Positions 38,037-39,844 of a stretch of DNA of 41,040 bases are shown here, in pieces. The number at the start of each line of letters is the position of its first letter. Position 1 is the first letter of the stretch. Position numbers and translations under genes: made by a program. The stretch comes from Sphingobacteriaceae bacterium (GTDB taxonomy: Bacteria; Bacteroidota; Bacteroidia; B-17B0; Aurantibacillaceae): assembly GCA_947453445.1 (NCBI GenBank), contig CANGGP010000027.1, positions 1 to 41,040 of the forward strand, written 5' to 3'. A model generated the notes under the pieces. The model made no database searches and was not told the origin of the DNA. It was given only the letters and a program-made list of their open reading frames with translations.

Positions 38037-39500
38037 ATGAGGTTAAAGGAAAAGTATTTATTACTATTAATATTAATTTTATTCTTGTTTGTTTATTCAA
38101 TCGTAAGTTTATTCAATCACCTCGTTTTTCGAACATACGCACTTGACTTGGGTTTGTATACCAATGCCTTATATCAGTATTCGCATTTCAATTTGGCAAA
38201 TTGTAATGTTTTTAAAAATGATTACGCCTTGTTATTATCAGATCATTTTGATTTATACCTAGTTTTATTTTCTCCTCTGGTTTATTTGTTTGGATCCTTT
38301 ACATTATTGATTATACAAATTCTGTTTATTGTTTTTGGTGCATACGGTGTATTTCTTTATTTTAAAGACGCTGAGCTAAATCACAGCAAAGTAGCATTGC
38401 TTTCAATGTTGTATTTTCTCACTTTTTTTGGTGTTTTTTCTGCCTTGTCATTCGACTATCATAGTAATGTAATAGCAGCATCTGTTGTGCCATGGTTTTT
38501 ATATTTTCTAAAACAAGGGAAAAGGAGTAAGGCATTTTATTTGTTTATCTTCATTTTAATCGCCAAAGAAAATATGGCCATTTGGCTGGTGTTTGTGTGT
38601 TTGGGTTTATTATTACAAGAGCGAAGGAATAAGTTAAATTCTACTTTTTTGATTTACTTAATACTGATAGCGCTTATTTATTTTGTGACGGTGGTTGGCT
38701 ATGTAATGCCTCATTTTTCGGTGTCGGGAAAGTATGATGGCTTCAAATATTCTTCAATCGGCACTAATCCTTTACAAGCGTTACAAACAATTTTAACACG
38801 ACCATTTTATTCATTAAAACTTTTATTCATTAATCCAACTGAAAACCAAAGTTTAGATTGGATTAAATGTGAGTTTCATTTTTTTGTGCTTCTTTCAGGT
38901 TTATATTTATTACTGTTTCGACCTTCTTATCTGATTATGTTAATACCAATCTACATGCAAAAAATGTATCACAATGATTCAAGTATGTGGGGTATTGCTA
39001 AGCAATATAGTATAGAGTTTGTTCCAATTTTAACGATTGGTATATTTTCGGTGATTACTGAATTTAAATCCACCGGCTTCAGTAAGTTTATGAAATATTT
39101 TGTCTTGATAAGTTCTGTTGTGGTCACCATCAGAAGTATGGATCATACGATGACTTACACAAAGAAGTCTACAGTGCGATTCTACCAAGAGGTACATTAT
39201 AAAAACACATTTAATGTATCGAATGCCCAAATGGCATTGAAATTGTTGCCGGAAAATGCTAAAATTAGTGCGCTCTCTTTTTTTGTTCCACATTTGGCTT
39301 TGCGAAAAAATATTTACCAGTTTCCAATCGTTAAAGATGCAGAGTATATTGTATTTAATTATTCGGATGATTTTTACCCCCTTAACTCGCCGAAATTCAT
39401 CAGCGAAATTGCCGACTACTTAAGCAGTGGCAATTGGACTTATTTGCTCAATTCACCTGACATTGCAATTTTAAAACGTAATCAAGCAGGCCGTCATTAA
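38037..39500 (+). CDS. DUF2079 family polytopic membrane protein
   Basis: A 487-residue membrane protein with about ten hydrophobic segments, first at 7-27. RTYALDLGLYTNALYQYSH (32-50) with Asp37 is the conserved first loop of DUF2079 proteins, which are related to GT-C glycosyltransferases, and LSDHFDLYLVLFSPLVYLF and SFDYHSNVIAASVVPW fit as well. A soluble tail (about 375-487) carries no recognised motif. It follows the GT39-like gene by 22 bases; two GT-C-like proteins in a row suggest related steps in surface glycan transfer. The family's activity is not established. The last of the five-gene run. Confidence 0.83.
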   Translation: MRLKEKYLLLLILILFLFVYSIVSLFNHLVFRTYALDLGLYTNALYQYSHFNLANCNVFKNDYALLLSDHFDLYLVLFSPLVYLFGSFTLLIIQILFIVFGAYGVFLYFKDAELNHSKVALLSMLYFLTFFGVFSALSFDYHSNVIAASVVPWFLYFLKQGKRSKAFYLFIFILIAKENMAIWLVFVCLGLLLQERRNKLNSTFLIYLILIALIYFVTVVGYVMPHFSVSGKYDGFKYSSIGTNPLQALQTILTRPFYSLKLLFINPTENQSLDWIKCEFHFFVLLSGLYLLLFRPSYLIMLIPIYMQKMYHNDSSMWGIAKQYSIEFVPILTIGIFSVITEFKSTGFSKFMKYFVLISSVVVTIRSMDHTMTYTKKSTVRFYQEVHYKNTFNVSNAQMALKLLPENAKISALSFFVPHLALRKNIYQFPIVKDAEYIVFNYSDDFYPLNSPKFISEIADYLSSGNWTYLLNSPDIAILKRNQAGRH

Positions 39501-39575
39501 CAGGCTTAGGTAATTTAAATTCAATCACTGTTGAAAATTTTAAAGCACCGCAATTTGCGCCAGCGATTGAATGGA

Positions 39576-39676
39576 AAGCCCCCTGTAAAAATTGCGTGAT
39601 GTTTTGCAGGCGAGGAGGCTGCGTAAGTATGTAGCAGACCCCGCAGCTGCAAAAACATAGCAATTTACAGGGGCTT
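39576..39676. repeat. Long imperfect inverted repeat, candidate palindromic element or structured RNA
   Basis: The left arm (39576-39609) starts AAGCCCCCTGTAAAAATTGC and ends TTTTGCAG. The right arm (39647-39676) reads, as its reverse complement, AAGCCCCTGTAAATTGCTAT then GTTTTTGCAG. The arms therefore match over about 30 bases with a few small gaps. The centre (39610-39646) has its own short GC-rich pairing (GGCTGC with GCAGACC). An RNA from either strand would fold into a long hairpin. Confidence 0.7.
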
Positions 39677-39685
39677 GAAATGAAA

Positions 39686-39738
39686 GCGCGTTTAGCCTGC
39701 CTGTCAAAGAATGTCTATCGCAAAGGCAGGCGGGGCGC
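39686..39738. repeat. Second GC-rich hairpin beside the long inverted repeat
   Basis: CCTGCCT (39696-39702) and AGGCAGG (39724-39730) are perfect complements with a 21-base loop. GCGC at 39686-39689 and 39735-39738 can extend the stem past an internal loop. It lies ten bases after the long inverted repeat and probably belongs to the same element. Confidence 0.55.
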
Positions 39739-39844
39739 CCAAAAAATAGAAAATTACGGATTGCGCTATGGTGATCTTAATTTCCGTTTTCTTTTTTTTT
39801 AAAAACCCAAACATTTCAACAGCCCCTTGTGAACTGTAAATAAC

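Follow-up and report, generated by a model that had tools for sequence, protein, structure and literature searches.

A GC-rich block interrupts an AT-rich intergenic region near the end of the window, the 41,040-nucleotide stretch of Sphingobacteriaceae DNA analyzed here, and the question is what kind of element it is. A preliminary description had seen two hairpins in it and had offered two readings, a dispersed palindromic repeat (REP/MITE-like) or an RNA processed from the end of a five-gene transcript. Both hairpins lie where they had been placed (arms at 39576-39609 and 39647-39676; second hairpin at 39696-39730), and the difference in composition was borne out (the element has a GC content of 0.53 and its flanks 0.30 and 0.31; across the 41,040 nt, the element's value is attained by 0.05% of 184-bp segments). 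Folded as RNA, positions 39560-39745 reached -71.6 kcal/mol versus a shuffle mean of -54.7 (z = -4.3), and none of 200 shuffles folded as well. The reverse strand gave a comparable RNA fold (z = -4.5), and positions 39557-39742 folded as single-stranded DNA gave z = -4.8. In this DNA fold, an outer stem (GCGCC/GGCGC) closes a junction, and both hairpins become its branches. Positions 39557-39740 thus form one element, a three-way junction composed of the outer stem, the long arm, whose tip is conserved, and the second hairpin (Table 1). Its ends follow the family consensus GCG..CGCCC and are slightly wider than first reported.

Table 1. Features of the structured element and its upstream neighbor in the window
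Feature	Positions	Strand	Basis
Whole element, long-arm Flavo-1-like structured repeat	39557..39740	+	Family consensus ends; R1 match; fold
Outer stem P0, 5' half GCGCC	39557..39561	+	P0 positions 4 and 5 covary, 73 copies
Outer stem P0, 3' half GGCGC, then CC and A-run	39734..39738	+	Covariation, composition, fold
P1, 5' half GCG	39563..39565	+	P1 pairing across 81 copies
P1, 3' half CGC	39687..39689	+	P1 pairing across copies
Twin motif, 5' copy TTGAATGGAAA, UUGNARYGGAAA minus one base	39567..39577	+	Motif and pairing as in Flavo-1 consensus
Twin motif, 3' copy TTGAAATGAAA, opposite base missing	39675..39685	+	Coordinated loss, Fisher P = 2.6e-6, 45 parsed copies
Long arm, 5' strand	39578..39609	+	Fold and covariation
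Long arm, 3' strand	39648..39674	+	Fold and covariation
Conserved tip module GCGAGGAGGC..GCAGACCCCGCAGC	39610..39647	+	Conserved columns in A1 and A2
Second hairpin, nested copy of GCCTGCC..GGCAGGC palindrome family	39695..39731		Pattern search of own genome
Upstream neighbor only: gene for a DUF2079 membrane protein, fifth in a same-strand run of five	38037..39500	+	Frames, domain match

The element starts 57 bases past the stop of the DUF2079 gene and ends about 107 bases upstream of the next same-strand frame, which matches the PD40 repeat. Five same-strand genes lie upstream, as had been noted; the second matches DUF5723 and the fourth a PMT_2 glycosyltransferase. Between 39400 and 39950, no terminator-like site was found on the forward strand, and one weak site was found on the reverse strand, outside the element. 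An intrinsic terminator, which would be a GC-rich hairpin running into T residues on the reading strand, was rejected; an A-run follows the element instead. Rfam at its gathering thresholds gave no match anywhere in the window. The tip, CCGAAGGAAGC, may resemble signal recognition particle RNA; this candidate was also rejected, since no such Rfam match appeared for the window copy at E ≤ 10 or for 15 loci at E ≤ 1.

The suggestion of a dispersed repeat was upheld in the genome of origin. BLAST returned divergent copies, the top one 79% identical across most of the query. From ten copies in this genome we built a covariance model, R1; in their alignment, 18 of 27 predicted pairs had changed on both sides in some sequence. 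R1 gave 48 matches in the same genome at E ≤ 10, at least two of which are reverse-strand echoes of listed copies, and 34 at E < 1e-8. These 34 include the window copy (39557-39690, 125.5 bits), a match that holds by construction because this copy is among the ten sequences behind R1. Element length ranged from about 140 to 220 nt. Two copies, L027 and L045, are near-identical, and L045 is cut by a contig end, so such repeats may break assembly.

Related genomes also held copies, and the search that the preliminary description had proposed recovered many with a conserved base. R1 matched 15 of 41 genomes at E ≤ 1e-3, the genome of origin included, and the remaining 26 had none. Counts at this threshold were 41 in the genome of origin, 40 in G017 (mostly near-identical short copies), 16 in G009, 13 in G012, and 11 in G008. 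A sample of the class yielded matches at E ≤ 1e-5 in 23 of 295 genomes; among the matches listed, 17 of these genomes had at least one long-form match (>100 bases) and 6 had short matches only. The relatives recovered with R1 span several families of the class. Searched as an exact pattern, the alternative form of the tip module was found in 37 stretches, each with a title that names a group within Bacteroidota. Tip-pattern matches occurred twice about 640 bases apart on opposite strands in L303 and twice about 3.4 kb apart on one strand in L316. Viral-contig matches of a 16-base pattern were left unused because, by estimate and among the matches listed, chance could yield as many.

We next consider whether the predicted fold is maintained. 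Across 84 matches, 91.9% of cells were paired (63.3% when shuffled), and double-change cells numbered 566 versus 149.7 in shuffles, so the covariance check that had been proposed came out in favor of structure. The covariation score was 0.681 and fell to 0.164 or less once partners were slid by one to three columns. The comparison is tilted toward structure, since the structure itself was derived from ten of the 84 sequences and the model guided their alignment; the outer stem (P0) and the RY step of the twin motif lie outside R1 and are independent of its fitting. The P0, P1, and twin-motif counts left out 3 of the 84 matches (one reverse-strand self match and two short copies). A motif rule, wrong for at least one copy (L077), located the P0 partner in 73 of 81 copies, and positions 4 and 5 were paired in 68/73 and 64/73 copies, respectively, values that none of 2,000 shuffles reached. 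These two positions took the forms CC/GG, UG/CA, CA/UG, CU/AG, AU/AU, and AG/CU. The most variable position of P1 was paired in 78/81 copies (shuffle mean, 39.4).

The twin motif was parsed in 45 of 103 copies, a recognizable motif being needed on both sides. Its RY/RY step was paired in all 45 (shuffle mean, 32.0; maximum of 39 in 5,000), as GU/AC in 18, GC/GC in 15, AU/AU in 3, AC/GU in 2, and wobble forms in 7. In one internal loop of the motif, the opposite bases were both present in 35 copies, both absent in 7, and discordant in 3 (Fisher P = 2.6e-6); the other loop was invariant in the parsed copies. The window copy carries such paired losses, giving a 2x2-like loop. Because copies are related, all of these shuffle counts overstate independence. 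Departures from Watson-Crick pairing in the twin motif were 7 G-U versus 0 A-C. The arms, read in 39 of 81 copies, held 520 Watson-Crick, 8 G-U, and 4 A-C pairs; because G-U and A-C do not differ (P = 0.39), the arms name no acting strand.

The block is therefore not a single copy lacking compensatory change. A chance structure or an assembly artifact is refuted by the dozens of copies, which are spread over many genomes and carry compensatory changes; nothing was found in favor of either, and we regard both as virtually impossible.

What the conserved base resembles is Flavo-1 (RF01705), whose model has 76 positions and a gathering cutoff of 42 bits. The Flavo-1 section of Weinberg et al. 2010 (PMC2864571) lists the class as probably RNA and not cis-regulatory. 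In the part of a transcriptome study of another species that treats it (PMC9723704), Flavo-1 matches lie sense or antisense, many of them in untranscribed regions. Later literature, in so far as the post-2010 sources covered here extend, gives no function for Flavo-1, and the portions consulted of PMC2864571, PMC9723704, PMC9029176, PMC12306157, PMC3733652, and PMC3049150, supplementary files aside, contain neither a long-arm form nor a dispersed-repeat reading of it.

P1 and a paired twin UUGNARYGGAAA motif with 3x3 purine loops are present in both the Flavo-1 consensus and the long copies. A free hairpin arm, many copies per genome, and occurrence in Bacteroidota are further points of likeness. 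In contrast to Flavo-1, the window copy has an arm of about 30 pairs with a conserved tip module, as well as an outer stem and a third branch that are both missing from the 76-position model. It gave no RF01705 match at E ≤ 10, and four other long copies (L027, L060, L072, and L101) gave none at E ≤ 1. Across 15 loci searched with Rfam at E ≤ 1, all twelve matches were to Flavo-1, at 26 to 38 bits and thus below the cutoff; they fell in short copies of this and other genomes and in long copies L053 and L115 of G008. L053, which lay outside the R1 training set, scored 121 bits with R1 and 37 bits with RF01705. Conversely, R1, built from long copies, also recovers short copies that RF01705 matches. 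In the genome of origin, two copies exceed the RF01705 cutoff (62.3 and 59 bits), and 8 more match at E < 0.003. At E ≤ 10, RF01705 matched 10 of the 14 control genomes, and weak matches were therefore discounted; at E ≤ 1e-5, there were none in the controls, and 94 of 295 genomes in the class sample had matches, 69 of them above the cutoff. The window copy is thus built like Flavo-1 and linked to it via intermediates, and it is not a member by Rfam's rule. Because short and long copies grade into one another, we consider it an arm-extended Flavo-1 relative.

The second hairpin has a different origin. The pattern GCCTGCC-N(12-40)-GGCAGGC gave 31 forward matches in the genome of origin and 0 in the backward control; the matches represent 24 distinct hairpins spread over 18 contigs. 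The hairpin belongs to a separate dispersed palindrome family and is a guest in the element. Another member occupies the same place in the element of C32 (L036), and one lies inside the 5' motif of the element of C67 (L047); in other elements, the place holds an unrelated hairpin or about four bases. Near position 84000 of C3 (L014, L020), a run of GCCTGCC/GGCGGGCAGG palindromes stands without an element match in L014. An intact tRNA-Arg gene lies a few hundred bases from this run, and the surrounding tRNA-like pieces were not called as a gene. By eye, a further small palindrome (e.g., AAGCC-GTGGCTT, then GAGCCAG..TGTG) is nested in several elements; carriers of this type are L035, L049, L102, L103, L119, and some G017 copies.

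Copies in the genome of origin were biased toward convergent gene ends. Genes were called by a simple longest-frame rule, and both neighbors were called for 26 of 30 fetched loci: 12 copies lay between convergent genes, 13 between tandem genes, and 1 between divergent genes. Background gaps of at least 30 bases in 360 kb of this genome (n = 164) were 18 convergent, 109 tandem, and 37 divergent, so that copies were enriched at convergent ends (Fisher P = 6e-5) and depleted at divergent ones (P = 0.03). Nine tandem copies were on the genes' strand and 4 on the opposite strand. Among proteins flanking the fetched loci, apart from overlapping stretches of one locus and the G017 repeats, the only shared ones were a few pairs at 50 to 64% identity (L048 with L116 and L113, L055 with L116, and L049 with L098). 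Flank motifs, CTAAAAAT..TTTAAAAT upstream and ACTTTTTGAG downstream, were seen by eye in 20 hand-picked loci. At least 4 of the 6 bases 3' of CGCCC were A in 26 of 29 own copies, under an end-picking rule that favors A/T; this A-rich stretch was absent from the GC-rich copies of family f9 that were inspected.

Individual copies can also be retained in place. The window locus is not comparable across species because its upstream protein lacks a close relative (≤39% identity). We compared instead a Flavo-1 copy of another genus (G244) with the best 30 matching loci among 81 genomes of that genus. The same two genes flanked 24 of the 30 loci, and the remaining six had a different neighbor. Twelve of the 24 conserved gaps held a copy, one (G321) held its ends only, and 11 held none by eye, although one of the latter (G331) may hold a trace. 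The lowest-energy fold gave the Flavo-1 pairing in 9 of the 12 copies; in the other three (G244, G343, and G317), the P1 letters are complementary despite an alternative lowest-energy fold. All 12 arms are hairpins, several of them quite different in sequence, and one P1 pair takes all four Watson-Crick states (T-A in 7 species, A-T in 2, C-G in 2, and G-C in 1). Relative to the operon, the copies here lie with their Flavo-1 strand antisense. Recurrent insertion at this locus, or copying from elsewhere, may have occurred. For long-arm copies, a comparison of orthologs in G295 and G272 covered 51 pairs, of which 42 were unchanged, 4 had double-sided changes, 2 had single-sided changes, and 3 were broken as counted in the first species' register.

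These observations bear on an RNA reading, in which the element would work in 3' untranslated regions, for example by guarding mRNA ends or slowing transcription, and copies would be kept for their transcript fold. The covaried fold, the excess of G-U over A-C in the twin motif, the enrichment at convergent gene ends, the retention in 12 of 24 gaps, and the listing of Flavo-1 as a probable RNA in that section of PMC2864571 are all consistent with it. However, the orientation of tandem copies is weak (9 versus 4, of the 26 called), the 12-species locus is antisense to its operon, arm wobbles seem few (8 G-U against 520 Watson-Crick pairs in 39 copies), and the published Flavo-1 matches in the part of PMC9723704 concerned occur in either orientation, many of them untranscribed. 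We consider this reading possible but unlikely. The narrower suggestion, that the block may be an RNA processed from the five-gene transcript, agrees with the five genes upstream and may hold; nevertheless, copies occur on either strand relative to genes, and the same published matches lie in both orientations and often outside transcribed regions (PMC9723704, in that part).

Of the dispersed palindromic (REP/MITE-like) reading, the many copies, the conserved base, and the compensatory changes stood, and both labels fell. MITEs are short, non-autonomous, dispersed elements, and the element shares these traits. In G017, moreover, a short module lies inside a 228- to 360-bp unit with both terminal-repeat ends in 17 of 20 loci, and 8-bp duplications around the unit were seen by eye, as expected if an insertion sequence had produced a conventional MITE, complete with terminal inverted repeats and target duplications. 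Yet in 250 bases on each side of 51 other copies, terminal repeats with 8-bp duplications were no better than in mismatched flanks (best score, 4 versus 6 in 60 mismatched-flank controls), so that these features were not above chance at the tested copies, and the G017 case looks like capture of a module. A MITE origin is very improbable. The G017 units themselves (L080 to L099) have ends GGATCAATCGGAATTG.. and ..CGCTTGACCC and carry a short Flavo-1-like module; duplications are visible in, e.g., L085, L088, and L092, and the side hairpin takes at least three unrelated forms.

Mobilization as a REP-type palindrome by a RAYT (Y1) transposase of the same genome would fit the two Y1 transposase matches above the family cutoff and the palindromic, extragenic character of the element, a likeness to the many-copy extragenic palindromes described in the relevant part of PMC3733652. 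However, both Y1 genes are flanked by other hairpins that look unrelated (by eye, 1.5 kb on each side), and a three-way junction of about 140 to 220 nt with conserved internal loops is longer than, and unlike, a 20- to 40-bp palindrome. We likewise hold this origin to be very improbable. The hairpins at the Y1 matches (L021, L022) are of the TTTTGCCTCTCTGAGGCAAA and GGTTCCAAA..TTTGGAACC types.

An IS200/IS605-like single-strand transposon is disfavored as well. Such an element, transposing from the lagging strand, would be biased toward one replication strand, and 94 Flavo-1 copies in two genomes showed no such bias (46 leading, 48 lagging; origin placed from noisy GC skew, 20 samples in each genome, long-arm copies left out), which is evidence against an IS605-like route. 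A parallel is offered by BOX, RUP, and SPRITE of Streptococcus pneumoniae, presented in the section of PMC3049150 that concerns them as small, extensively structured interspersed repeats that move slowly and are interpreted as parasitic elements; they belong to another phylum, and the comparison carries no claim of homology.

Taken together, these data make it probable that the block, an arm-extended Flavo-1 relative, is a structured repeat of Bacteroidota that codes for nothing, is dispersed, and moves slowly, and that its folded strand is recognized. The conserved part is the base of a folded single strand, made of the outer stem, P1, and the twin UUGNARYGGAAA motif pairing with itself through purine-rich 3x3 loops, with the tip module conserved in addition in the long form. 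Arm sequence and the extra hairpin are free to change while pairing is maintained, and a constant base with a free arm suggests that the base is what is recognized, presumably by some host or mobile-element protein. Because the copies yielded neither an autonomous partner nor an insertion site or target duplication, we infer spread from copy number and near-identical pairs; it would most likely be rare and in trans, as a non-autonomous element. The element would be tolerated at gene 3' ends; after insertion, compensatory changes and the exchange of hairpin tips would preserve its fold. The persistence of a copy at one site across 12 species goes beyond what a purely selfish element requires and counts against this explanation.

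The acting form may be DNA rather than RNA. In favor of DNA are the low number of G-U pairs in the arms, the weak orientation, and the either-strand and untranscribed Flavo-1 matches (PMC9723704, in the part that treats them). In favor of RNA are Rfam's view and the 7 G-U versus 0 A-C departures in the twin motif, which suit a folded RNA no less than DNA. Integron attC sites have a conserved base, a variable hairpin end, and a strand asymmetry that arises from unpaired bases, features to which the element may be compared by functional analogy only. A more specific and speculative proposal, which we rate as rather doubtful, is that Flavo-1, along with its long-arm form, serves as a folded single-stranded DNA substrate of a Bacteroidota recombinase or nucleoid protein rather than as an RNA gene. 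The base would be the recognition site, strand choice would fall to the asymmetric purine loops, and other palindromes would land at the arm tip and the side hairpin as free cargo positions.

Flavo-1, listed since 2010 as a probable structured RNA, thus emerges as the central part of a broader group of dispersed elements. To the known motif this group adds an outer stem, a third branch, and a long-arm form whose tip is conserved in its own right, and it shows compensatory changes at fixed places. It poses a testable question, whether folded DNA or RNA is the form that is read, and by which protein, for an element matched in 94 of 295 genomes of the class.
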